A stretch of DNA of 64,000 bases from assembly GCA_020725865.1 (NCBI GenBank), contig DYEC01000019.1, positions 62,001 through 126,000 on the forward strand, in the 5' to 3' direction. The stretch comes from Anaerolinea sp. GTDB taxonomy: Bacteria; Chloroflexota; Anaerolineae; Anaerolineales; Anaerolineaceae. The notes under the pieces are model-generated. The model did not search any database. It was given only the letters and a program-made list of their open reading frames with translations, and was not told the DNA's origin. A program made the position numbers and the translations under genes. This document shows positions 27,269-41,670 of the stretch, one piece after another; the first letter of the stretch is position 1, and every line of letters begins with the position of its first letter.

Positions 27269-28744
27269 ATGCTCAAATCTCTTTACTGGAAACTTACCCT
27301 TGCTTTCATGCTCGTGGCTTTTATCACTGCCGGGCTAGTGGCAGTATTCATTCGCATCACCAGCACCGACCGCCTGCTGAAACTGGTTATTGACCAGCAG
27401 CGCAGCAATCTGGAACAGGTGCTTACCGACTACTATGCCACTCGCGGATCATGGGATAACATTGCCAATGACTGGTGGGAAATTCAAAAAGAGTTACCCT
27501 TTAACCCTGCCCGCAATGAGCAGACAATGAGAATAATTGTTGACAATCAAAATCCTCCCCCGGGCATTCCGCCGGGTTCAACAACCCCACAAGTGGAAAA
27601 CGTTATCGTAATCAACGGCAATCCCCGCCCTGAGCGGCGCAGTCTGTTTGGGCTTGCCGATTCGCAGGGCAGGGTGATTATTCCCATTGAGCCGGACTAT
27701 CCCGGTAACACAATCTTGTCCCGCTCGGTTCTAGATTCAAGCACACCGATTGTCGTCAACGAGAAAGAGGTCGGTTACATCCTAACTGCGCGCCGAATGC
27801 CGGGATTCAACCCAGCCGAGGCGCTCTTTATCCGCCGCACCAACGAGGCTCTCTTACTGGCAATACTGGGTGCTATGCTGATTGCACTTCTGGTCGGTAT
27901 TTTTCTGGCGCGCACACTGACCCGCCCACTGCAGGCACTCACGCAGGCAGCACAGAATATCGCTCAGGGACAACTTGAACAGGAAGTTAAAGTCAATTCG
28001 CAGGATGAAATCGGTCAGCTCGCCGAGGCATTTAACCGCATGAGTCGAGAAGTTGCCCGCGTAAACCAGCTTCGCCGTCAGATGACTGCCGATATTGCCC
28101 ACGATTTGCGAACGCCGCTCACCGTGATCGCCGGATATGTCGAATCCATGCGTGACGGCATCCTGCAACCAACGGCGCAACGCTTGTCGTTGATTTATGG
28201 AGAAATCGAGCGCCTTCTCAATATGGTTGGCGACCTGCGCATGCTCTCACAAGCTGATGCAGGTGAACTACCCATGCACCCCCAGCCGGTGTTCCCAAAA
28301 ACATTGCTGGAGCGCGTTGCCGAGGTTTTTCGGCATCACGCCGAGCAAAAACAAGTCTCACTACTGGTGAACACAGATGACAATCTGCCCGAAATCAAGG
28401 TAGATGAAGCGCGCATGATGCAAATCATGGACAACCTGATCAGTAACGCCTTACGTTACACCCCTGCCGGGGGCAGAATCACACTGTCTGCCCAACAGAA
28501 CGCACAAACAGTGGTGTTCACCGTACAGGATACCGGAGAAGGGATTGAACCAGAAGAACTGCCCTTTATTTTTGACCGTTTTCACCGTGCCGACAAATCT
28601 CGTCACTCCGAAACGGGAGAAACGGGGCTAGGGCTGGCAATTGTCAAGGCATTGGTAGAAGCGCACAAAGGACGGGTTTGGGCAGAGTCAACACCGGGTA
28701 CTGGTACAACCGTTCTGATCGAAATCCCTGTTCATACAAGCTGA
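27269..28744 (+). CDS. Sensor histidine kinase (HAMP, HisKA)
   Basis: Membrane sensor kinase, 491 aa: TM1 (about 10-30), an extracytoplasmic domain of about 155 residues with a Pro-rich loop (NPPPGIPPGS), TM2, HAMP, HisKA with His278 (ADIAHDLRTPL), then HATPase with N-box NLISNALRYTP, G1 DTGEGIEP, F-box FIFDRFHRAD and G2 GETGLGLAI. A TTG at 27260 overlapping the regulator stop is an alternative start; the ATG at 27269 is given here. Either way translation is coupled to the regulator. The signal may be the exporter substrate or envelope stress. Confidence 0.93.
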   Translation: MLKSLYWKLTLAFMLVAFITAGLVAVFIRITSTDRLLKLVIDQQRSNLEQVLTDYYATRGSWDNIANDWWEIQKELPFNPARNEQTMRIIVDNQNPPPGIPPGSTTPQVENVIVINGNPRPERRSLFGLADSQGRVIIPIEPDYPGNTILSRSVLDSSTPIVVNEKEVGYILTARRMPGFNPAEALFIRRTNEALLLAILGAMLIALLVGIFLARTLTRPLQALTQAAQNIAQGQLEQEVKVNSQDEIGQLAEAFNRMSREVARVNQLRRQMTADIAHDLRTPLTVIAGYVESMRDGILQPTAQRLSLIYGEIERLLNMVGDLRMLSQADAGELPMHPQPVFPKTLLERVAEVFRHHAEQKQVSLLVNTDDNLPEIKVDEARMMQIMDNLISNALRYTPAGGRITLSAQQNAQTVVFTVQDTGEGIEPEELPFIFDRFHRADKSRHSETGETGLGLAIVKALVEAHKGRVWAESTPGTGTTVLIEIPVHTS

Positions 28745-28754
28745 TTTTCAGCGA

Positions 28755-28794
28755 AATCTTAAAAAATCAAAAACTCTCATGATTTTTTAAGATT
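28755..28794. terminator. AT-rich inverted repeat after the kinase gene
   Basis: Perfect 15-bp arms (28755-28769 and 28780-28794) with a 10-base loop, directly after the kinase stop. The arms contain runs of A and T. Probably a terminator separating the two-component operon from the ilv promoter 7 bases further on, although the stem is weak. Confidence 0.5.
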
Positions 28795-28800
28795 AACCTG

Positions 28801-28829
28801 TTGACTTTAGACCTCGAAAGTGTTAAACT
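28801..28829 (+). promoter_or_regulatory. Promoter of the branched-chain amino-acid operon
   Basis: TTGACT (28801-28806) and TAAACT (28824-28829) with an exact 17-base spacer. Initiation near 28836 gives a transcript starting about 27 bases before the leader-peptide GTG. Confidence 0.65.
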
Positions 28830-28862
28830 AGCTGGTAATTAAGTTTAAAACATTGGTGTAAA

Positions 28863-28976
28863 GTGGTGATTAACCTTTCTTCCCTCTTCATCCTGGTTCT
28901 TATTATTGTAGTCCTTATTATTAAGGACTCTTTGTGTTCCGGGTGGAAGGTGAGAAAGGTGTTTAGTGTAGTGTAA
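28863..28976 (+). CDS. Ile/Leu/Val-rich leader peptide of the ilv-leu operon
   Basis: A 37-codon open frame (GTG 28863 or 28866, stop 28974-28976) between the promoter and the ilvD terminator. Residues 8-20 read LFILVLIIVVLII, with 12 of 13 being Ile, Leu or Val; overall 20 of 37 are. This is the classic composition of an attenuator leader peptide for branched-chain amino-acid genes. The Val-Leu-Ile-Ile-Lys-Asp codons also form a 7-bp hairpin (28911-28917 with 28922-28928). The ribosome site is weak (GGTG 28855-28858). A small membrane peptide is an alternative reading, but position and RNA pairing favour attenuation. Confidence 0.72.
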   Translation: MVINLSSLFILVLIIVVLIIKDSLCSGWKVRKVFSVV

Positions 28977-29036
28977 GCCAAATCTTACCAGACCAGAAAG
29001 TAAAACCAACCGCCCGGAACACCGGGCGGTTTTTTT
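28934..29036 (+). promoter_or_regulatory. Antiterminator/terminator switch (ilv attenuator)
   Basis: The terminator has a 10-bp stem, 29008-29017 with 29022-29031, loop AACA and a T-run through 29036. The segment GTGTTCCGGGTGG at 28934-28946 can pair with 29010-29022 over 13 bp with one G-U, which uses up the left arm of the terminator. The two structures are mutually exclusive. A ribosome stalled on the upstream Ile/Leu/Val codons would leave 28934-28946 free to form the antiterminator. Confidence 0.75.
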
Positions 29037-29060
29037 ATTCTACCGCTCGTGAGGAAATCA

Positions 29061-30752
29061 ATGCGATCTGACAGAATCAAAAAAGGCTTTGAACACGCAC
29101 CGCACCGCGCATTGCTCAAAGCCACCGGCGTCACAGACGCCGACATGGATAAACCCTTTGTCGCCATTGTCAATTCTTATGTGGACATTATCCCCGGTCA
29201 TGTCCACCTGCAGCAGTTTGGACGGCTGGTCAAGGAAGCCGTGCGCGCAGCAGGAGGTGTCCCGTTCGAGTTCAATACCATTGGTGTAGATGACGGCATC
29301 GCCATGGGACATGCAGGCATGAAATATTCACTTCCATCCCGCGAGCTGATTGCCGATAGCGTTGAAACCATGATCGAGGCACACTGCTTTGACGGCATGG
29401 TGTGTATTCCCAATTGCGACAAAATCGTCCCCGGGATGTTAATGGCGGCTCTGCGTGTCAACATCCCGGCGATTTTTGTATCCGGTGGACCAATGCCCGC
29501 CGGGCGCACCCCCGAGGGTGAAGTCATTGACCTGATCAGTGTTTTCGAAGGTGTAGGCGCATATCAAAAAGGCAACATCACCCCGCAGCGCCTCAAAATG
29601 CTGGAAGATTACGCCTGCCCCGCCTGCGGTTCCTGCTCTGGCATGTTCACTGCCAACAGCATGAATTGCCTGATGGAAGCCCTGGGTCTGGCGTTACCTT
29701 ACAATGGCACTGCGCTGGCATTAACCCCCGAACGCGAAGCACTGGCACGCCGCGCCGGTGAGCGCATCCTCGAATTGATCGAAAAACAAATCACTCCGCG
29801 CAGCATTGTCACAATCGAAGCATTGGATGATGCCTTTGCACTGGATATGGCAATGGGCGGATCAACCAATACCATCCTGCACGGCATGGCTCTTGCTGAA
29901 GAAGCCGGCATCCATTATTCGCTCGACCGCATCAACGCAATCTCTGATAAAGTTCCTCACCTGTGTAAAGTTAGCCCTTCGGGGCAGTGGCACATGGAAG
30001 ATGTTCACCGTGCAGGTGGTGTACCTGCCATCATGAAAGAACTCCAACATGCCAGTGGAATACTGCACCTTGAACGTTTGACCGTCTCCGGACAAACCCT
30101 ACATGAAATACTGGAAGCCGCCAAAGTAAAAGATTACGATGTTATCCGCCCTCATAACCAGCCCCATTCCACCAATGGCGGTCTGGCATGTCTGTTCGGC
30201 AACCTGGCACCCAACGGCTCTGTAGTTAAGACCGGCGGCGTTCACCCGTCCATGCGTCAGTTCAGCGGACCGGCGCGTATTTACGAATCGCAGGAAGAAG
30301 CGCTGGCAGGTATTTTGGCGGGCGAGGTACAGCCCGGCGAAGTGGTCGTAATCCGCTACGAAGGTCCGCGCGGCGGGCCGGGGATGCAGGAAATGCTCAG
30401 CCCGACCAGTGCCATCATGGGCATGGGACTGGGCGATAAAGTTGCCCTGATTACCGATGGTCGTTTTTCGGGCGGTACACGCGGCGCCTGCATTGGGCAT
30501 GTATCGCCTGAAGCAGCTGCGGGCGGTCCAATCGCTGCCCTGCAAGCAGGTGACATAATTGAGATTGACCTGGAAGCCCGCACCCTCAATGTTCGTTTAT
30601 CACAAGAAGAAATTGGCCGGCGCCTGGCAGCGCTCCCCCCGTTTCAAGTGCGCACCCAAAGCAAGTGGTTGCGGCGCTATGCGTACTTTGTCACCAGCGC
30701 TGACCGCGGGGCAGTTCTGGACTCAAACGCAAAATCATTCTATAGGAGGTAG
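29061..30752 (+). CDS. ilvD: Dihydroxy-acid dehydratase
   Basis: Fe-S dehydratase converting 2,3-dihydroxy-isovalerate and -methylvalerate to the 2-keto acids, the third common step to Val, Leu and Ile; 563 aa, full length. Cluster and active-site Cys are seen in CIPNCDK (about 115-119) and [11 protein letters not shown] (about 186-192). Other family blocks include GGSTNTILH and [10 protein letters not shown]. The ATG at 29061 is chosen because GAGG lies 7 bases upstream; the GTG at 29049 overlaps that site. First structural gene of the operon, 25 bases after the attenuator T-run. Confidence 0.97.
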
Positions 30753-30754
30753 AA

Positions 30755-32473
30755 ATGAAACTTACTGGTGCAGAAATTCTCTGGGAAAGCCTGAGACGCG
30801 AAGGTGTTGAGGTTGTTTTCGGCTATCCTGGCGGCGCAAATCTGCCTATTTATGACGCTTTACCAAAGTTTCCTATTCGGCATGTACTGGTTCGCCACGA
30901 GCAGGGCGCTGCACACATGGCGGATGGTTATGCCCGTGCCAGCGGCAAGGTAGGGGTAGCCATGGCAACCTCAGGACCAGGCGCAACGAATCTGGTCACC
31001 GGCATTGCAACTGCCATGATGGATTCTTCGCCCACTGTATTTATTACTGGGCAGGTGGTCAGCAAATTCATCGGCTACGACGCCTTTCAGGAAACCGACG
31101 TTACTGGCATCACTCTGCCCATTACCAAACACAACTATCTGGTAACAGATGTGCGCGAATTGGGTCATGTTGTCCGTGAAGCCTTTTATATTGCACGAAC
31201 CGGACGACCTGGACCGGTATTGATTGACATCACAAAGGATGCACAACAAAACTCGACTAATTGGGAATACGATGATAGCCCCATCCAGCTTCCCGGCTAC
31301 CGCCCTGACCTCAGCCCCAGCGAGAAAGACTTTCAAACCGCAGTGGAGTTAATCCAATCGGCAGAAAGACCGATTATTCTAGCAGGGCGTGGCGTATTGC
31401 TGAGCAGTGCGATGAATGAACTGAAAGAATTTGCCGAGCGCACCAATACTCCTGTTGCCATGACTCTGCTAGGGTTGAGCGGTTTTCCTTCTAGTCATCC
31501 GCTGTATCTGGGTATGATGGGCATGCATGGTGAAGCGTGGGTGAACCATGCCATTCAGAACGCTGACCTGTTGCTCGCCTTCGGCATGCGCTTTGATGAC
31601 CGCGTTACCGGCAATCTGAAAACCTACGCACCCAATGCCCGCAAAATTCACTTGGATATTGATCCATCAGAGACTAACAAAAACGTCAAAGTAGATGTTG
31701 CTCTGATCGGAAACTTGCGCGATACCCTGCGTCAGTTGTTACCACGCATTCAGCCCTGCGAACATTCTGACTGGCTTTCCTTTATTGACAGTCTGAAAGG
31801 TGAAAGCGCCGTACGCGATATTCAAAATATGCCGGATAACGGCAAACTCCATGCTCCGCACGTCATCTTCGATATCTGGCGTCTGACCAACGGCAAAGCG
31901 CTGGTAGTCACCGATGTAGGACAGAATCAAATGTGGACGGCACAATACTATCATCAGGACATACCCGGTTACTTTATCAGTTCCGGCGGTTTGGGTACGA
32001 TGGGATTTGGATTGCCGGCAGCCATTGGTGCTAAATTCGCTCGACCCGAGGCAGAGGTTTGGGTGGTTTGTGGAGACGGCGGTTTTCAAATGACACAGGC
32101 TGAGCTGGCCACCATCGCCCAAGAGGGTATCAAAATCAACATTGCCATCATCAACAACGGCTACCTGGGTATGGTGCGCCAGTGGCAAGAGTTTTTCTAC
32201 GACAGCCGCTACACTGCAACCCCCATGCGTAGCCCCGATTTTGTCAAAATCGCCGAAGCCCATGGGCTGACTGGCCTACGCGTGACCAAACGTGATGAAG
32301 TTGAAGAAGCTGTCCAGCGGGCACGCCAGAGCAAAGAAACCGTCCTGATTGATTTTCGCGTTGAGAAAGAGGACAGCGTTTACCCAATGGTGCCGGCAGG
32401 TGCCGATTTGCATCAGATGATCCGCAGACCATTACCCAACCCTGTTTTGGAAAATATGGAAAACGATATTTGA
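30755..32473 (+). CDS. ilvB: Acetolactate synthase, large (catalytic) subunit
   Basis: ThDP-dependent acetohydroxyacid synthase, 572 aa, condensing pyruvate with pyruvate or 2-ketobutyrate. It has the ThDP Glu region FGYPGGANLPIYDAL with RHEQGAAHMADGYARASG, the FAD-site middle domain, and the C-terminal ThDP/Mg motif GDGGFQMTQ followed by INNGYLGMVRQW. A near-consensus AGGAGG precedes the ATG, and only 2 bases separate it from ilvD. The regulatory subunit follows immediately. Confidence 0.97.
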   Translation: MKLTGAEILWESLRREGVEVVFGYPGGANLPIYDALPKFPIRHVLVRHEQGAAHMADGYARASGKVGVAMATSGPGATNLVTGIATAMMDSSPTVFITGQVVSKFIGYDAFQETDVTGITLPITKHNYLVTDVRELGHVVREAFYIARTGRPGPVLIDITKDAQQNSTNWEYDDSPIQLPGYRPDLSPSEKDFQTAVELIQSAERPIILAGRGVLLSSAMNELKEFAERTNTPVAMTLLGLSGFPSSHPLYLGMMGMHGEAWVNHAIQNADLLLAFGMRFDDRVTGNLKTYAPNARKIHLDIDPSETNKNVKVDVALIGNLRDTLRQLLPRIQPCEHSDWLSFIDSLKGESAVRDIQNMPDNGKLHAPHVIFDIWRLTNGKALVVTDVGQNQMWTAQYYHQDIPGYFISSGGLGTMGFGLPAAIGAKFARPEAEVWVVCGDGGFQMTQAELATIAQEGIKINIAIINNGYLGMVRQWQEFFYDSRYTATPMRSPDFVKIAEAHGLTGLRVTKRDEVEEAVQRARQSKETVLIDFRVEKEDSVYPMVPAGADLHQMIRRPLPNPVLENMENDI

Positions 32474-32486
32474 AGGAGAAAAAGCG

Positions 32487-33062
32487 ATGCAACATACAAT
32501 AGTCGCACTGGTTGAAAATAAACCCGGTGTGTTGAATCGGGTGGCATCTCTGTTTCGACGGCGCGGTTTCAACATTGATTCGCTCACGGTCGGCCGTACC
32601 GAACAGCCCGAAATCTCGCGCATGACCATTGTCGTGGATACCGACGAGACCAGCGCGGAACGGCTGATATCTTACCTGTACAAGCTTGTCAATGTCATTC
32701 AAGTGCACGACTTGAGCAAAGTCCCCACCGTCAATCGTGATCTGGCGATGATTAAGATCAACGCAAACGATGAAAACCGCACCCACATTATGCAACTTGT
32801 GGATGTGTTCCGCGCCCGCATTGTGGACGTGTCTAACAATTCATTCATCATCGAAATCACTGGTGACGAGGAGAAAATCGAGGGCTTCATTGACGTCTTG
32901 CGCCCTTGGGGCATCATCGAAATGGTACGCACCGGTATTGTTTCAATGGCGCGGGGTGCAGCCCCTTTATACCCCAACGGTAAAAACGGCAACGGCTATC
33001 ACCAAGAAACCAGAGCAGGGTTCAACCTGCCTCTCGCATCACAACCTTACAGAGGAGCATAA
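32487..33062 (+). CDS. ilvN: Acetolactate synthase, small (regulatory) subunit
   Basis: ACT-domain regulatory subunit, 191 aa, conferring Val feedback control on IlvB. The N-terminal ACT domain has VALVENKPGVLNRVASLFRRRG and NIDSLTVG; the second, C-terminal ALS-small domain includes FRARIVDVSNNSFIIEITG. GAAGGAG lies upstream at good spacing. Some schemes name the gene ilvH. The last 20 or so residues are a polar tail. Confidence 0.95.
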   Translation: MQHTIVALVENKPGVLNRVASLFRRRGFNIDSLTVGRTEQPEISRMTIVVDTDETSAERLISYLYKLVNVIQVHDLSKVPTVNRDLAMIKINANDENRTHIMQLVDVFRARIVDVSNNSFIIEITGDEEKIEGFIDVLRPWGIIEMVRTGIVSMARGAAPLYPNGKNGNGYHQETRAGFNLPLASQPYRGA

Positions 33063-33065
33063 ATT

Positions 33066-34121
33066 ATGGCAAAAATGAGTTTCAGTGGCGTTGAAGAAGA
33101 AGTTGTTACCCGAGAGGAGTTCCCTCTTGAAAAAGCGCGTCAGGTATTGAAAGATGAAACCATCGCTGTACTGGGCTACGGTGTACAAGGACCTGCACAG
33201 GCACTAAATATGCGCGACAACGGCTTTCGAGTCATTGTCGGCGTCAACGAAGGGGGACGCTCCTGGCAAAAAGCATTGCAGGATGGCTGGAAGCCTGGGG
33301 AAACTCTCTTCCCGATGGCAGATGCTGCCCGACGCGGTACCGTCATTCAGTATTTGGTATCCGACGCAGCGCAAAAAATGACCTGGCCAGAGATTAAACC
33401 CTGTCTGAATCCGGGCGATGCGTTGTACTTCTCACATGGCTTTTCGATTGTATATAAAGACCAGACTGGTGTGATTCCCCCGGATTATGTGGACGTCATC
33501 ATGGTTGCACCTAAAGGCTCCGGTACCAGCGTGCGGGCAAATTTCTTGAACGGTAGTGGCATAAACAGCAGCTTCGCTGTTGAACAGGATTACACCGGTC
33601 GTGCCCGCGAACGCACGCTGGCGTTAGGCATTGCCATTGGCTCCGGATACCTATTTGAAACGACCTTCAAGCATGAAGTATATAGTGATCTGGTGGGAGA
33701 GCGCGGTGTGTTAATGGGTGCGCTGGCTGGCATCATGGAAGCGCAATACAATGTCTTGCGTCAGCATGGTCATACTCCCAGTGAAGCTTTCAACGAAACC
33801 GTCGAGGAATTGACCCAAAGCCTGATCCGTCTAGTGGCACAAAACGGCATGGACTGGATGTATGCCAATTGCAGCACCACCGCCCAGCGCGGCGCTCTGG
33901 ACTGGCTACCGCGTTTCCGCGAAGCAGTAAAACCCGTTTTTGATGAGCTCTACAAGAGCGTGGTTTCCGGCGAAGAAACCCGCATCGTTCTGGAAGCCAA
34001 CAGCGCCCCCGATTATCGCGAAAAGCTGGAAGAAGAGCTGCGTCAGATGCGCGAATCCGAAATGTGGCAGGCAGGTGCAAAGGTGCGTAGCCTGCGACCG
34101 GAGAATTGGAAACGAGATTGA
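33066..34121 (+). CDS. ilvC: Ketol-acid reductoisomerase, eukaryote/Bacteroidetes-like subtype
   Basis: NADPH-dependent isomeroreductase, 351 aa. The nucleotide-binding motif is AVLGYGVQGPAQALNMRDNG, not the GYGSQGHAHA form of ordinary class I enzymes. The blocks SHGFSIVYKDQTGVIPP, VAPKGSGTSVR, GSGYLFETTFKHEVYSDLVGERG and MDWMYANCSTTAQRGALDW match the version found in fungi and Bacteroidetes. The Mg ligands lie in the EVYSDLVGE and EAFNETVEELTQ segments. It is 3 bases after ilvN with GAGGAG upstream. The subtype is uncommon in a bacterial ilvBNC operon and may mark an old transfer. Confidence 0.95.
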   Translation: MAKMSFSGVEEEVVTREEFPLEKARQVLKDETIAVLGYGVQGPAQALNMRDNGFRVIVGVNEGGRSWQKALQDGWKPGETLFPMADAARRGTVIQYLVSDAAQKMTWPEIKPCLNPGDALYFSHGFSIVYKDQTGVIPPDYVDVIMVAPKGSGTSVRANFLNGSGINSSFAVEQDYTGRARERTLALGIAIGSGYLFETTFKHEVYSDLVGERGVLMGALAGIMEAQYNVLRQHGHTPSEAFNETVEELTQSLIRLVAQNGMDWMYANCSTTAQRGALDWLPRFREAVKPVFDELYKSVVSGEETRIVLEANSAPDYREKLEEELRQMRESEMWQAGAKVRSLRPENWKRD

Positions 34122-34141
34122 ACCCAGAGGAGTGAACTCTT

Positions 34142-35773
34142 ATGCAGGACAACTACGTACGGATTTTTGATACCACCCTGCGCGATGGCGAGCAGTCGCC
34201 CGGCGCAACCATGACCAGTGCCGAAAAGATTGAGGTGGCGCGGGGTCTGGCGCGGCTGGGTGTAGATGTCATTGAAGCTGGCTTTCCAGCCGCCTCGCCA
34301 GATGATCTAGAAGCCGTACGGCGCATTGCCGTCGAGGTTGGCAATGACGGCAGTGATCGTCAACCGCCAATTATCTGCGGTCTGGCGCGCGCCACCCGCA
34401 GTGACATTGACAAAGCCTGGGAAGCCGTGCGCCCTGCCGCCCGTCCGCGCATCCACACCTTCCTGGCAACCTCCGAGATTCACATGCAATACAAGCTGAA
34501 AATGACACGTCAACAGGTAATCGAACGCGTGCGCGAGATGGTGGCTTATGCCCGCAGCTTGTGCGAAGATGTCGAATTCAGCCCGGAAGATGCGGGGCGA
34601 AGCGACCCGGAATTCCTCTATCAAGTACTGGCTGTGGCAATTGAATCGGGCGCAACCACGCTCAACATTCCGGACACAGTTGGCTATACGCTGCCCGATG
34701 AATTCGGCGCGCTGATTGCCGGTATTATCCGCAATACCCCCGGCATTGAAAACTGCGTCGTTTCGGTTCATTGCCACAACGATCTCGGGCTGGCAACTGC
34801 CAATACACTCGCTGGTCTGAAAGCCGGCGCACGCCAGGCTGAAGTGACCATAAACGGCATTGGCGAGCGGGCAGGAAACACCGCCTTGGAGGAAGTAGTA
34901 ATGGCACTGCATACACGCAGACCAGCGTTTGGGTTAGTCACCGGCATTAACACTACCCAGATCACCCGCATCAGCAAACTGGTCAGTAACTACACCGGTA
35001 TGGTCGTCCAGCCTAACAAGGCAATTGTCGGCGCAAATGCCTTTGCCCATGAAGCGGGAATTCATCAGGACGGCATGCTGAAGTACAACCAGACTTATGA
35101 AATCATGAGTCCCGAACTGGTCGGCGCGACACAAAGTAAACTGGTGTTAGGCAAACATTCCGGACGTCACGCGCTCAAGGTTCGCCTGACCTCGCTGGGT
35201 TATTCGCTAAATGAAGAAGAGATGAATCTGGTCTTCGAGCGCTTCAAGGCGCTGGCAGACCGCAAGAAGGTAATTACTGATGCAGACCTGGAAGCATTGG
35301 TTTCGGACGAGCTTTATCAGCCGCGCGAGCTGTTTTCGCTGGATGGACTGCAGGTCGCCTGCGGCACAATGGGTATGCCTACCGCATCGGTTCGCCTGCG
35401 AGACCCAGAAGGCAACGTCCATATCCATGCCAGCATTGGCACGGGACCCGTGGATGCTACCTACAAAGCCATTGACGCCATCGTGAAATCTCCCAATATC
35501 CTGCAAGAATTTGTCATTCATGCAGTTACGGAAGGCATTGACGCACTGGGTGAGGTAACCGTGCGCATTCAAAGCACCGACTTACCTGCTACAGTAGATG
35601 CCCAAAGTGATACAGAACAGCCGCGCACTTTTGGCGGCTACGGCGCTGATACTGATATCGTTGTCGCCAGCGCAAAAGCTTACCTCTCAGCTCTTAATAA
35701 AATGCTGGTGGCTAGCGGAAAATTTGGTACACCAGAAAAGCCCGCCACTCATGCTGTCGTTCATTCACCTTAG
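34142..35773 (+). CDS. leuA: 2-isopropylmalate synthase
   Basis: First committed enzyme of leucine synthesis, condensing 2-ketoisovalerate with acetyl-CoA; 543 aa. The HMGL-like TIM barrel begins [18 protein letters not shown] and has metal ligands in [17 protein letters not shown] and the NGIGERAGN motif. A linker and the C-terminal LeuA dimer regulatory domain (after about 390) with [13 protein letters not shown] bind the feedback inhibitor. GAGGAG precedes the ATG. It lies 20 bases after ilvC. Confidence 0.96.
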
Positions 35774-35795
35774 TTTTTGAGAAAGGAACTATGCC

Positions 35796-36002
35796 ATGAA
35801 CCCCGCTTATTATTTTCAACCTCAACCTCCCGATGAATATGACTTCCCCTTTGGACATCCCAACACTATCCCAGCTGGTTGGGACCTCTCCGAGCTTTTC
35901 AAGCCAACCTCAAACGGATCGCATCCCCAAGCGGTCGACGCAAATTCACCCCTGAAAGCATCGGATACCGAGTATGGAAACACCCAAAACCCTGTTTCAT
36001 AA
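35796..36002 (+). CDS. Small unknown protein between leuA and leuC
   Basis: A 68-aa frame with AAGGA 8 bases before the ATG, starting 22 bases after leuA and overlapping leuC by 29 bases in another frame. The first 37 residues are Pro- and aromatic-rich ([24 protein letters not shown]) and look like a folded or binding peptide; the rest is polar. I do not recognise a family. leuC itself has only a weak ribosome site, so translation of this frame probably delivers ribosomes to leuC. It could be a real small protein or mainly a coupling device. Confidence 0.55.
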
Positions 36003-37398
36003 AATCTGGGAAAAGCATGTCGTTACCCAGGAGCCAGACTCGCCCGCTGTTCTGTATATAGACTTACACCTTGTCCATGAGGTTACCTCACCTCAGGCAT
36101 TCGCCGGGTTGAGAGCGCGAGGCTTGAAAGTCAGACGACCAGACCGCACCGTTGCCACGATTGATCATGGTGTTCCAACGCGCACAAACGGCGGTTCAAA
36201 GGGGCGGCTGTCTTTTGCCGATGAGTTAAGCGCCCGCCAGATACATCAGCTCGAAGATAACTGCCGCGAATTCGGTATCCGTCTCTATGGACTGGAAAGT
36301 GAACAACAAGGCATTGTTCATGTTATCGGTCCCGATCTGGGGTTAACCCAGCCCGGAATGACCATCGTCTGCGGCGACAGCCACACTGCCACACATGGCG
36401 CATTTGGCGCACTGGCATTTGGCATCGGCACTAGCGAAGTAGAGCACGTTCTGGCGACCCAATGCCTGCTCCAGTGGCAGCCTAAAGCCTGCAATGTTCG
36501 CATTGAAGGAAAATTGCAACAGGGCGTCACCGCCAAAGATGTCATTTTGGCATTGATCGGTAAAATTGGTGTTGGTGGGGGCGTAGGTTATGTATTTGAA
36601 TATTCTGGTTCAGCCGTGCGCGCCATGAGCATGGAAGAACGCATGACACTTTGCAATATGTCCATTGAAGGTGGAGCACGCGCGGGGCTGGTATCACCTG
36701 ACGAAACCACATTTGAATACCTAGCCGGACGTCCATACGCTCCTAAAGGTGACGATTGGGAGCGCAATCTGGCATACTGGAAAACCCTGCCGAGCGACCC
36801 CGGTGCACCATACGATCACGAGGTATTTCTAGAGGTGTCCGATTTGCAGCCAATGATTACCTACGGCACCAATCCGGGCATGAGCATTCCCATCACCGGA
36901 TATATCCCCGACCCGCAGGCCATTGCCGATAGCAGCCAGAAATCTGCTTTGGAAAAGGCACTGCAGTACATGGGACTTCAACCCAACCAACCCCTGTTAG
37001 GTCATCCTGTGGATGTAGTGTTTATTGGCAGTTGTACCAACGGCCGGCTCACCGACCTGCGCATGGCTGCCAGCCTGCTCAAGGGGCGCCGGGTTGCCGC
37101 TGGGATGCGCGTCCTTGTCGTCCCCGGCTCACAGCAAGTCAAACGTCAGGCAGAGGCGGAAGGGCTGGATCACATATTTAGGGACGCCGGGGCAGAATGG
37201 CGTGAACCGGGGTGCAGCATGTGTATCGCCATGAACGGTGACCAGCTCGAACCCGGACAATATGCTGTCAGCACCAGTAACCGAAACTTTGAAGGACGGC
37301 AGGGAAAAGGCGGACGCACCTTCCTCGCCAGTCCAATGACTGCCGCTGCTACTGCAATCACCGGTCGTGTCACCGACCCGCGCACCTTCTTGAGTTGA
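35974..37398 (+). CDS. leuC: 3-isopropylmalate/citramalate dehydratase, large subunit
   Basis: Aconitase-family large subunit, 474 aa, which with LeuD isomerises isopropylmalate and, given the cimA gene in the operon, probably also citramalate. The N-terminus [14 protein letters not shown] is typical. [4Fe-4S] ligands are in GSCTNGR and PGCSMC. Substrate-side blocks include [32 protein letters not shown]. The start is fixed by the conserved N-terminus, although its ribosome site is poor and it lies inside the preceding small frame. Confidence 0.96.
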
Positions 37399-37427
37399 AA
37401 CATCTACCTACCAAATGGGAAAATGCA

Positions 37428-38024
37428 ATGGAGCAGTTTACCACCCTTACTTCACGAGCAGTTCTATTACCAGTCAACGATATTGATACTGACCAGATCA
37501 TTCCGGCACGCTTCCTGAAAGTAACTGACAAAGCTGGTCTCGGCGCCAACCTGTTCGCCGATTGGCGCTACCTGCCGGACGGCTCACCCAACCCCGATTT
37601 TGTACTGAATAAGGCAGAAAACCAAGATGCCCAGATTCTGATTACCGGAAACAATTTTGGTTGCGGTTCCTCACGTGAACATGCCCCTTGGGCGCTAATG
37701 GGCTACGGCTTTCGGGCTATCATCTCCACCAGTTTTGCCGATATCTTTCGTAACAATGCTCTCAAGAACGGGTTGCTCCCGGTCACTCTCGAACCTGCCG
37801 CGTATGAGACAATAATTGACTTGGTGAAGCGTGCCCCCCAAATGAATCTGACCATTAATCTGGCACAACAAACTGTTACCTTGCCTGACGGGCACTCGTT
37901 TTGTTTTCCAATGGATGCCTTTTCAAAAACATGTTTATTAAATGGGATTGACGAATTGGGGTATCTGCTCAGTCTGGAAACACAAATTACCGCTTACGAA
38001 CAAAAATTTGCCTTATCGGGATAA
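37428..38024 (+). CDS. leuD: 3-isopropylmalate/citramalate dehydratase, small subunit
   Basis: Swivel-domain small subunit, 198 aa, partner of LeuC. Blocks seen: VNDIDTDQIIPARFLK at the N-terminus, NNFGCGSSREHAPWAL (substrate-binding loop), and AIISTSFADIFRNNALKNGLLPV. The ATG at 37428 is chosen because it begins 13 or so residues before the conserved segment and has GGGA upstream; earlier in-frame starts overlap leuC. It is followed by cimA after 4 bases. Confidence 0.95.
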   Translation: MEQFTTLTSRAVLLPVNDIDTDQIIPARFLKVTDKAGLGANLFADWRYLPDGSPNPDFVLNKAENQDAQILITGNNFGCGSSREHAPWALMGYGFRAIISTSFADIFRNNALKNGLLPVTLEPAAYETIIDLVKRAPQMNLTINLAQQTVTLPDGHSFCFPMDAFSKTCLLNGIDELGYLLSLETQITAYEQKFALSG

Positions 38025-38028
38025 TCTT

Positions 38029-39600
38029 ATGAAACGAATCGAAATTTATGACACAACCCTTCGAGATGGCACACAACGCAAAGATATCTCATTATCAGTT
38101 AACGATAAACTGAACATTGCCCGTCGGCTGGACGAGCTTGGTGTGGCTTTCATCGAAGGCGGCTGGCCCGGCTCAAATCCCAAAGATGCCGAATTTTTCA
38201 AGCGCGCTGCCCGCATGACCTGGAAACACGCCCGCATTGCGGCTTTTGGCTCTACCTGCCAGGCGAACAAATCGCCATCCGAAGATGCCAATATTCAGGC
38301 GTTGCTTGAAGCCGAAACGCCTTATTGCACGGTTGTAGGAAAAACTTCCATCCTCCATGTTACCGATGTTCTGCGCACCACGCGCCAGAATAACCTGCGC
38401 ATGATTGAGGAAAGCGTAGCTCATCTGCGTGCGCATGGTCGGCAGGTCATCTACGATGCCGAGCATTTCTTTGATGGATACAAAGAAGATGCCGAATATG
38501 CATTGGCAACGCTGGAAGCTGCAACGCGCGGCGGTGCAGAGACCGCTGTCTTGTGCGATACCAACGGCGGCACAATGCCGTGGGAAATCGCTGAAATTGT
38601 ACGCGTAGTCCGCCAGCGTTTGAACATTCCACTGGGCATTCACGCTCATAACGACAGTGAGTGTGCGGTGGCAAATTCAATTACCGCTGTTAAAGAAGGT
38701 TGTATCCAAGTACAGGGCACCATTAACGGCTATGGGGAGCGCTGCGGCAATGCCAACCTCTGCTCGATTATTCCCAACCTGGAACTTAAGCTGGGCTTGC
38801 AGGCCCTCCCGGAGGGACATCTGGTACAGCTATCCGACATTTCCCGCTATGTTGCCGAAGTCGCCAACCTGACCTATGATGAACACCTTCCTTACGTGGG
38901 CAGAGCTGCGTTCGCCCACAAGGGGGGTATTCATGTAGCTGCTATGCGGCGCAACGAAAGATCATATCAGCATATTGACCCACGCCTGGTCGGTAACCAG
39001 ATGACAGTGGTGGTTTCAGAATTATCTGGGCGCGGCAACCTGCTCAGCAAAGCCGAAGAATACGGTATTCAGATTACCGATGAGGAGCAGGTCAACCGAG
39101 TACTTAAGACCGTGAAGCAACTAGAAGCACAGGGCTTCTCCTTTGAGGCGGCTGAGGCTTCGGTAGTCATGATGTTCAAACGACAAGAGAAGGACTACAA
39201 GCCACCCTTTGAACTGATTGATTTTTCAGCAGAAGTAGAGCACCGTCAGGGACGCGGTATTTTTGCCGAGGCAACGGTCAAAGTTCGTGTAGATGGTGAA
39301 GTGATCCACACAGCCGCTGAAGGCAATGGCCCGGTCAACGCCCTCGATCTTGCTTTGCGCAAAGCACTGGTGGCGCGCTACCCCAATATCAATAACTTCC
39401 ATTTGGTGGACTACAAAGTGCGCATTCTAGATGGTCATAATGGGACAAATGCTACCACACGCGTATTAATAGAAACGCAAAACGGCTCAAAAAGCTGGAG
39501 CACCGTTGGTGCCAGCACCAACATCATTGAAGCAAGCTGGCAGGCACTGGTCGATTCGATTGAATACGGACTGCTGGTTTGCAATGACTATCAGGAGTAA
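38029..39600 (+). CDS. cimA: (R)-citramalate synthase
   Basis: Condenses pyruvate and acetyl-CoA to citramalate, giving 2-ketobutyrate for isoleucine without threonine; 523 aa. It begins [20 protein letters not shown] and has [11 protein letters not shown], which separates the CimA group from LeuA. Metal site is [14 protein letters not shown], then [13 protein letters not shown]. The C-terminal LeuA-type regulatory domain contains [16 protein letters not shown]. Placement among leuCD and leuB, whose products catalyse the next steps, supports the assignment. The ribosome site is weak (GGGA), probably coupled to leuD. Confidence 0.94.
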
Positions 39601-39610
39601 GGACAGTTTC

Positions 39611-40678
39611 ATGAAAGCCAACATCGTACTTTTGCCGGGTGACGGCATTGGTCCAGAGGTCGTCGCTTCTGCCCGCCGAACATTGGAAGCCATCGCCCAA
39701 TTATTCCATCATCAATTTGTTTTCAGTGAATATTTGATTGGCGGGTGTTCCATCGATACCTATGGTATAGCCCTGACTGATGAAGCGCTGGAAGCCTGCC
39801 GGGCAGCAGATGCCGTCCTGCTGGGCGCGGTGGGCGGCCCAAAATGGGATGACCCCACCGCCCCCGTTAGACCCGAACAAGGCTTATTAGCATTGCGCAA
39901 AGGGTTAGGTGTCTTTGCAAACCTGCGGCCGGTGAAGGTTTACCCAAGCCTGATCAGCGCTTCTCCGCTCAAGCCAGAGAAATTACAGGGAGTGGATCTG
40001 ATCGTCGTGCGCGAGCTTACCGGTGGGCTGTATTTTGGTCAGCCCAAAGGACGCAGCCGAACGACAGATGGGCGTGAGCGAGCAGTGGATACCCTCGAAT
40101 ACCATGAAGACGAAATCGAACGCATTGTACGTATGGCATTTCAATTGGCGCAGTCGCGTCACCAGAAAGTAACCTCGGTGGACAAAGCTAACGTACTGGA
40201 ATCCTCACGGCTCTGGCGTCAGGTTGCCAATCGTGTTGCACAGGAATTTCCACAGGTCAGGCTGGAACACATGCTGGTGGATACTGCGGCTATGCGGTTG
40301 GTTTCGAACCCGGCAGGGTTTGATGTCATTGTTACCGAAAACATGTTTGGTGACATCCTGACCGACGAAGCCGCTGTCTTGAGCGGCTCAATGGGTGTGT
40401 TACCTTCAGCCTCACTAGGTACTGATGGCCCCGGACTTTATGAACCGATTCATGGTTCAGCTCCAGACATTGCCGGCAAAGGTATTGCCAACCCGATTGG
40501 TACAATTCTGAGTGCCGCTTTTCTGCTGAGGTATTCTTTAAAGCTGGAAGAAGAAGCGCGGCAACTCGAGGTAGCGGTCGAAAAAGCTATTGACATGGGA
40601 CAGACAACGGTTGACCTGGGTGGGACTTACACAACATCGCAGGTGACCGATGCCATTATTCACCATCTTTTACACTGA
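39611..40678 (+). CDS. leuB: 3-isopropylmalate/3-methylmalate dehydrogenase
   Basis: NAD-dependent beta-decarboxylating dehydrogenase, 355 aa, acting on isopropylmalate and, with CimA present, probably also 3-methylmalate. Seen: [13 protein letters not shown] at the start, GAVGGPKWD, the substrate Arg region [32 protein letters not shown], and [28 protein letters not shown] (Mg and cofactor site). AGGA lies 8 bases upstream. The ATG at 39611 directly begins the conserved Rossmann-like strand. Confidence 0.96.
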
Positions 40679-40690
40679 GGAGTTGCTCTT

Positions 40691-41614
40691 ATGGGAATAG
40701 AATCAAAGTACATCTGGATGAACGGTCAGCTTGTTGAATACGAAAAAGCGACTGTGCACTTCCTGAACACCGCCCTGCACTACGGGCTGGGGGTGTTTGA
40801 GGGGATACGCTGTTATAGCACCGAGCGCGGACCGGCGGTTTTCCGCCTGCGCGAACATATGGAACGGCTGGTTAATTCAGCGAAGATTCTCGGCTTCCGC
40901 GACCTGCCTTATAACGTCAATGAGTTGATGGAAGCGACTAAAGAAACCATCCGTGCGAATGGATTTCAAGCCTGCTATATTCGACCACTCATCTATCATC
41001 ACAGCCCCAATCCCAACCTTAACCTTGACAGCGGGTATCCCATGGTTGGAATTGCCGCATGGGAGTGGGGTGCCTATCTGGGGGATGAAGCCATGGAAAA
41101 GGGTATCCGTGCCAATATTGCCTCTTTCACCCGCCACCACGTCAACATCTCGATGACCAAAGCCAAAATCACAGGAAATTATTCCAATAGCGTGCTGGCA
41201 AAGACTGAATCAGCACGTCTTGGCTTTGACGAAGCAATCATGCTTGATCCGCAAGGCTACGTAGCAGAATGTACAGGAGAAAACCTGTTCCTGGTGAGGC
41301 GAGGCGTGGTATATTCCCCGCACACCGCCGCAATTTTGGAAGGCATCACGCGGGACTCGGTTATCGTCCTGGCGAAAGACATGGGCTACGAGGTCAGGGA
41401 AGAGCCCATCGGGCGCGACCAGCTTTACATCGCCGACGAGGTGTTCGTCACCGGTACCGCCGCAGAATTGGTAGCTGTCACCGAAATTGACTTTCGCGTC
41501 ATCGGTAGCGGCAAAATGGGGCCTGTTACCCGTAGCATCCAAAAAGCCTTTCACGAAACCGTGCGAGGCAAACACCCGCGCTCAGCGGAATGGCTGGATT
41601 ACGTCAATCCATAA
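40691..41614 (+). CDS. ilvE: Branched-chain amino-acid aminotransferase
   Basis: PLP-dependent class IV transaminase, 307 aa, performing the final step to Val, Leu and Ile. The N-terminal block is HYGLGVFEGIRCY, the PLP Lys lies in SMTKAKITGNY, and GYVAECTGENLFLVRRG binds the cofactor. The C-terminal FVTGTAAELVAVTEID block is typical of BCAT rather than D-amino-acid transaminases. GAGG lies upstream. Last gene of the operon, closed by a strong terminator. Confidence 0.96.
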   Translation: MGIESKYIWMNGQLVEYEKATVHFLNTALHYGLGVFEGIRCYSTERGPAVFRLREHMERLVNSAKILGFRDLPYNVNELMEATKETIRANGFQACYIRPLIYHHSPNPNLNLDSGYPMVGIAAWEWGAYLGDEAMEKGIRANIASFTRHHVNISMTKAKITGNYSNSVLAKTESARLGFDEAIMLDPQGYVAECTGENLFLVRRGVVYSPHTAAILEGITRDSVIVLAKDMGYEVREEPIGRDQLYIADEVFVTGTAAELVAVTEIDFRVIGSGKMGPVTRSIQKAFHETVRGKHPRSAEWLDYVNP

Positions 41615-41639: not shown

Positions 41640-41670
41640 CCGCCCGCTTCATCTCCGGGCGGTTTTTTTT
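41640..41670 (+). terminator. Terminator of the ilv-leu operon
   Basis: CCGCCCG 41640-41646 pairs with CGGGCGG 41656-41662 over a 9-base loop, followed by eight T (41663-41670). Confidence 0.9.

Follow-up and report, generated by a model that had tools for sequence, protein, structure and literature searches.

The region upstream of ilvD in the window, i.e., the whole analysed stretch of 64,000 nucleotides, is with high confidence best explained as a ribosome-mediated transcription attenuator that senses isoleucine, leucine and valine. The elements of such a system are present, they are conserved among relatives and three of their helices covary. A leader-peptide attenuator had already been proposed at this site from the sequence alone, and the complete four-segment anatomy, the kept codons and the covarying pairings described below support this original prediction. 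All features mentioned lie on the plus strand. The source genome comprises 3.1 Mb in 26 contigs, and the named sequences closest to its IlvD come from metagenome-assembled genomes (MAGs) labelled Chloroflexi and Anaerolineae, so that it was assigned to Chloroflexota, Anaerolineae.

Downstream of the leader, ten same-strand genes (29049-41614) were assigned by protein-family matches in the order ilvD-ilvB-ilvN-ilvC-leuA-leuC-leuD-cimA-leuB-aminotransferase. The first of them, ilvD (29049-30752), encodes dihydroxy-acid dehydratase (TIGR00110), its frame being counted from a GTG at 29049 with an ATG at 29061 as alternative start. It is followed by ilvB (30755-32473), ilvN (32487-33062), ilvC (33066-34121), leuA (34142-35773), leuC (35974-37398), leuD (37395-38024), cimA (37942-39600), leuB (39506-40678) and a gene for a class IV aminotransferase, putatively of the branched-chain type (40691-41614). 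For cimA and leuB, the first ATG, GTG or TTG was taken as the start, and the true start probably lies further in. Citramalate synthase, the product of cimA, can feed isoleucine synthesis from pyruvate via LeuCDB, and TIGR01127, one model of threonine deaminase, found no match above cut-off in the genome. The ten-gene operon is plausibly able to make all three branched-chain amino acids, so that a mixed Ile/Leu/Val leader fits. The predicted ten-enzyme gene content was confirmed by the protein families. Control of all ten genes by one attenuator is plausible in view of the gene order, of terminator-like sites within the operon that show no excess over shuffles, and of a candidate operon terminator at 41644-41662, located behind the last gene and followed by T8. 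The sole large gap in the operon separates leuA from leuC (35774-35973, 200 nt) and contains the beginning of a small frame, near 35796, which is out of frame with leuC. On the upstream side of the leader, a sensor kinase gene ends at 28744. Between this gene and the candidate promoter lies a perfect 15-bp A+T-rich inverted repeat (28755-28794), which could represent the end of the upstream transcript or an operator.

The candidate promoter (28801-28829) is of the sigma-70 type and consists of TTGACT and TAAACT (9 of 12 matches) at a distance of 17 nt, with a TG preceding the -10 element and a predicted transcription start near 28836. The 17-spaced promoter proposed earlier is hence present, but it is weak evidence by itself, as chance alone would give about 0.8 matches of this quality in the region scanned. 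The leader peptide frame (28863-28976) comprises 37 codons, starts with the GTG at 28863 or the adjacent one at 28866, ends with TAA at 28974-28976 and translates to VVINLSSLFILVLIIVVLIIKDSLCSGWKVRKVFSVV. Its control codons, LFILVLIIVVLII (28884-28922), specify Ile, Leu or Val in 12 of 13 positions and are conserved in homologues. Frame and run agree exactly with the original prediction, and the run is unique in the window: at least 11 of 13 was found only at 28884-28922 in the six frames of the 64 kb within which the chance level was estimated, and the maximum never exceeded 10 of 13 in 2000 dinucleotide shuffles of 28800-29040. A short frame enriched in codons for the amino acid products of its own operon is therefore given. 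It is presumably translated; less favourable to the attenuator are the GTG start of the window leader, where homologous frames start nearly always with ATG (67 leaders), and the rarity of cores resembling a Shine-Dalgarno sequence (13 of 67).

The leader RNA has a folding energy 5 standard deviations better than that of shuffled sequences, and four segments can be assigned to it. Segment 1 (28873-28896), the 5' strand of a protector helix, overlaps the first control codons and folds with 28937-28960. Segment 2 (28934-28960) lies inside the leader frame and combines two overlapping strands, namely the antiterminator strand (28934-28951) and the 3' strand of the protector (28937-28960). Segment 3 (29005-29022) can pair either with segment 2 to form the antiterminator or with segment 4 (about 29022-29031) to form the terminator. 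The latter hairpin (29008-29031; 10 pairs, 8 of them G-C; -19.5 kcal/mol) is followed by T7 and lies downstream of the leader frame and upstream of the first gene, which bears out the strong intrinsic terminator described just before ilvD. Likewise, the 13-bp alternative pairing of 28934-28946 with 29010-29022 was reproduced exactly, with 13 consecutive pairs including one G-U, and extends to 28934-28951 with 29005-29022 (-30.8 kcal/mol). Two further structures had been overlooked by the earlier reader. One is the protector helix 28873-28896 : 28937-28960, which sequesters the antiterminator strand. What would do so when the amino acids are plentiful had been left unanswered, with the suggestion that transit of the leader ribosome may be enough. 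The protector helix overlaps segment 2 and is therefore a specific candidate for this missing step, whereas ribosome transit alone need not suffice. The other one is an apical hairpin (28910-28929; AGTCCTTA / TAAGGACT) in the loop of helix 1:2 and inside the control codons. Similar apical hairpins are visible by inspection in homologues, and the one of the window leader possibly acts as a pause hairpin.

According to the proposed mechanism, the switch would sense the charging of isoleucine, leucine and valine tRNAs and control expression of the ten-gene operon. With amino acids plentiful, the leader ribosome would clear the control codons and segment 1 would pair with segment 2, which would leave segment 3 free and allow the terminator 3:4 to form before ilvD. 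With any one of the three in short supply, the ribosome would stall in 28884-28922 and either cover segment 1 or part it from segment 2. Segment 2 could then capture segment 3 before segment 4 is made, leading to read-through into the operon. While termination and the starvation response of the leader are predictions from its sequence, the ribosome positions that would permit antitermination were modelled. For RNA up to 29022, i.e., truncated before segment 4, the position of the ribosome decides the fold in the model: the probability of 2:3 was 0.99 as long as the A site had not moved beyond the last Ile codon (28920) and dropped to 0.54 with the ribosome at 28926 and to 0.03 at 28929. Measured from the last control codon, the modelled boundary in homologues lay further downstream by a median of 3 codons (range -5 to +12). 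Once the ribosome had reached the stop codon, the model showed 1:2 together with the terminator. For the window leader, equilibrium folding favoured the terminator at every ribosome position as soon as segment 4 was present, and the RNA ending at 29022 favoured 2:3 in the absence of a ribosome. Taken together, these equilibrium results imply that the switch would have to work kinetically, by the earlier formation of 1:2.

Covariation was assessed in 67 leaders by a swap test, in which native pairing partners were compared with partners exchanged between genomes (5000 permutations). The native partners were superior in 65 of 67 leaders for 2:3, in 64 of 67 for 1:2 and in all 64 for 3:4. On exchange, the mean energies changed from -20.5 to -15.3 kcal/mol (2:3), from -32.0 to -24.8 kcal/mol (1:2) and from -20.2 to -13.3 kcal/mol (3:4), the native mean being reached in 0 of 5000 permutations for each helix. 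For the control helix 1:3, native partners did not differ from swapped ones (31 of 67 leaders). Kinship makes swapped pairs more alike and thus works against, not for, this result. Furthermore, segment 2 matches the terminator loop of its own genome, with none of 5000 permutations being as good; as the terminator stem does not constrain the loop, this match is independent evidence for the antiterminator. The central triple of segments 2-3-4 was C-G-C (26 leaders), T-G-C (12), G-C-G (9), T-A-T (7) and A-T-A (4), an illustration rather than a test, since it was the best duplex that defined the partner bases in segment 2. The antiterminator pairing that excludes the terminator is hence conserved by covariation, and the search for covariation in both helices of homologous leaders, which had been suggested as a check, succeeded for antiterminator and terminator and additionally for the protector. 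RNAalifold returned the terminator alone from an alignment of 32 leaders, with compensatory changes in 5 of 9 terminator pairs. The other helices were missed because the plain alignment fails to register segments 1 and 2, segment 2 being shifted by a one-base bulge in some lineages; swap and permutation tests were used for this reason. In addition, synonymous recoding of the leader weakened both 1:2 and 2:3. For 1:2, 29 of 40 single leaders showed this at p<=0.05, and for 2:3 a p of 0.05 was reached in only 16-25 of 40, a number that varied with the codon table used.

Among 147 genomes of the window's GTDB family, 48 had an IlvD match. All 37 genomes with the window-type IlvD (identity 66% or more, usable upstream DNA) showed a leader frame rich in Ile/Leu/Val codons (8-13 of 13), followed by a strong terminator. 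Accordingly, the search for such frames before ilvD in related genomes, as proposed earlier, was positive in all of these 37, and the homologous leaders kept both their Ile/Leu/Val codons and their alternative pairing, the loss of which had been named as evidence against an attenuator. Family members with a second IlvD type (53-56% identity) featured neither leader frame nor terminator upstream of it. A class-wide sample of 297 genomes revealed leaders in the other sampled families of the order and in several further ones, some preceding an IlvD of only 54-58% identity, and no leader before ilvD in many other families. At least two loci outside Anaerolineae carry the leader as well. Outside the class, the leaders of L244 and L245 possess a matching antiterminator strand and a terminator and lie 330-440 nt or more before ilvD; in L243, a 13 of 13 run occurs and no terminator was reported by the terminator finder used.

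The runs of the 67 leaders consist of 32% Leu, 29% Ile and 20% Val, with 1% Phe and 0.1% Met, and 64 of them contain all three of Ile, Leu and Val. Compared to ilvD in the respective genomes, the choice of synonymous codons is skewed: CTT accounts for 50% vs. 8% and CTC for 29% vs. 17% of Leu codons, ATT for 86% vs. 37% of Ile codons, and GTC for 57% vs. 31% and GTG for 3% vs. 38% of Val codons. A biased choice of regulatory codons is expected from selective-charging theory (PMC1183508), and constraints by pairing and base composition could contribute. The preference for the rare codons CTT and CTC would also suit a real attenuator that senses one amino acid, probably leucine, with the Ile and Val codons as filler, and the ilvD attenuator of Staphylococcus aureus was reported to respond above all to leucine, limitation of isoleucine having additional effects (PMC5794164). 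This narrower sensing is nevertheless rather unlikely here, as nearly half of the run (48%) is Ile or Val, nearly all runs hold all three amino acids, the Ile and Val codons are skewed as well, and pairing or composition constraints could explain part of the skew.

Far less probable is another sensor, i.e., a T-box, a riboswitch or a protein, that acts on the same terminator and renders the leader peptide incidental. Such a reading could draw on T-boxes in the same genome at ileS, valS, leuS, thrS, pheS and serS, but the modelled boundary of the switch is dictated by where the control codons lie, and neither an Rfam family at cut-off nor a T-box was found at the locus. The T-box model RF00230 matches seven sites elsewhere in the genome and none here, so that a T-box was rejected for the leader. 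These seven matches (L157-L163) lie before the genes mentioned and before that of a TrpB-like enzyme. No Rfam family reached the gathering cut-off in the window, a search by E-value gave no family either, and the best weak match was Phe_leader with 23 bits against a cut-off of 55. Probably, the charging of isoleucine, valine and leucine tRNAs is read by T-boxes at the synthetases and by the leader ribosome at the biosynthetic operon. A broader reading is a serious possibility that falls somewhat short of probable: clade-wide attenuators absent from Rfam would sense all three amino acids via a codon set shifted to CTT/CTC, ATT and GTC, while T-boxes before the synthetase genes of the same genomes would directly read uncharged tRNA(Ile), tRNA(Val) and tRNA(Leu), the T-box survey behind it covering the window's own genome. 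If true, two sensors would serve one signal, divided by gene function. Finally, a small hydrophobic membrane peptide with a terminator that merely ends the upstream transcript is hardly credible and was rejected: the run is hydrophobic and about as long as a short membrane segment, and the sensor kinase gene does end upstream, but the runs contain hardly any Phe, Met, Ala, Gly or Trp, residues in which ordinary membrane segments are not so poor, the codons hold pairing information beyond the peptide according to the recoding test, the antiterminator covaries, and the element accompanies ilvD across the family.

The ilvGMEDA and leu attenuators of enterobacteria represent the textbook four-segment design, which the window leader shares, while the Rfam leader families gave no sequence match at their cut-offs. 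Closer in scope is Rli60 of Listeria monocytogenes, a ribosome-mediated attenuator before ilvD that was demonstrated by experiment (PMC5864092). It likewise features branched-chain codons and alternative 2:3 and 3:4 hairpins and controls an ilv-leu operon. However, it belongs to Firmicutes, has a leader peptide of 13 amino acids and acts together with CodY, whereas the leader described here belongs to Chloroflexota, comprises 37 codons, holds segment 2 inside its frame and precedes an operon with cimA. Similarly, the S. aureus ilvD leader combines an attenuator peptide and a terminator before ilvD of an ilv-leu operon (PMC5794164), but is leucine-rich and from Firmicutes, in contrast to the balanced Ile/Leu/Val content of the window leader. 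Short frames with Ile/Val/Leu runs and terminators before ilv genes are further described for Corynebacterium, Mycobacterium and Streptomyces (PMC1262725, PMC10272879, PMC11857589). They differ in preceding ilvB and in a control-codon run that overlaps the terminator, and codon changes in the Streptomyces ilvB leader were without effect.

Attenuator logic and whole-pathway scope are thus not new, being preceded by Rli60 and the S. aureus ilvD leader, both of which have experimental support. Leader-peptide systems were known only from Proteobacteria and Actinobacteria before a 2010 study reported them from Firmicutes (PMC2965389), and the literature searched on attenuators in Chloroflexi/Chloroflexota or Anaerolinea yielded no description. 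Within this literature, the phylum Chloroflexota and the clade-wide distribution are new. An earlier prediction is possible, as some of these genomes may fall within a comparative study by Lopatovskaya et al. (2010, cited in PMC4833913). A textbook mechanism with good documentation in Proteobacteria, Actinobacteria and some Firmicutes is extended to a large group of Chloroflexota. Moreover, the 67 leaders offer a deep comparative set, with overlap between the coding, protector, antiterminator and terminator functions, and they allow tests of selective-charging theory on synonymous codon choice (PMC1183508). The presence of T-boxes and a leader attenuator in one genome additionally raises the question of what two read-outs of a single signal are good for.

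Some individual leaders show further peculiarities. In the leader of L104, located before ilvD, segment 2 is duplicated in tandem (AGCCAAATTACGGTTGGATGGAAGAGGGA twice) and the peptide is lengthened. Short Ile/Leu/Val-rich frames without a clear intrinsic terminator were noticed before ilvD in L004, L006, L007, L011 and L014, which are MAGs labelled Ignavibacteriae, Bacteroidetes, Calditrichia, CSSED10-310 and Neomarinimicrobiota; these frames possibly rely on a different read-out. Besides, a MAG labelled 'bacterium' from a marine glass biofilm (L018:2860-3000) contains an Ile/Leu-rich leader and a strong terminator before ilvD, and its GGGAAGGGG strand could pair with the terminator.
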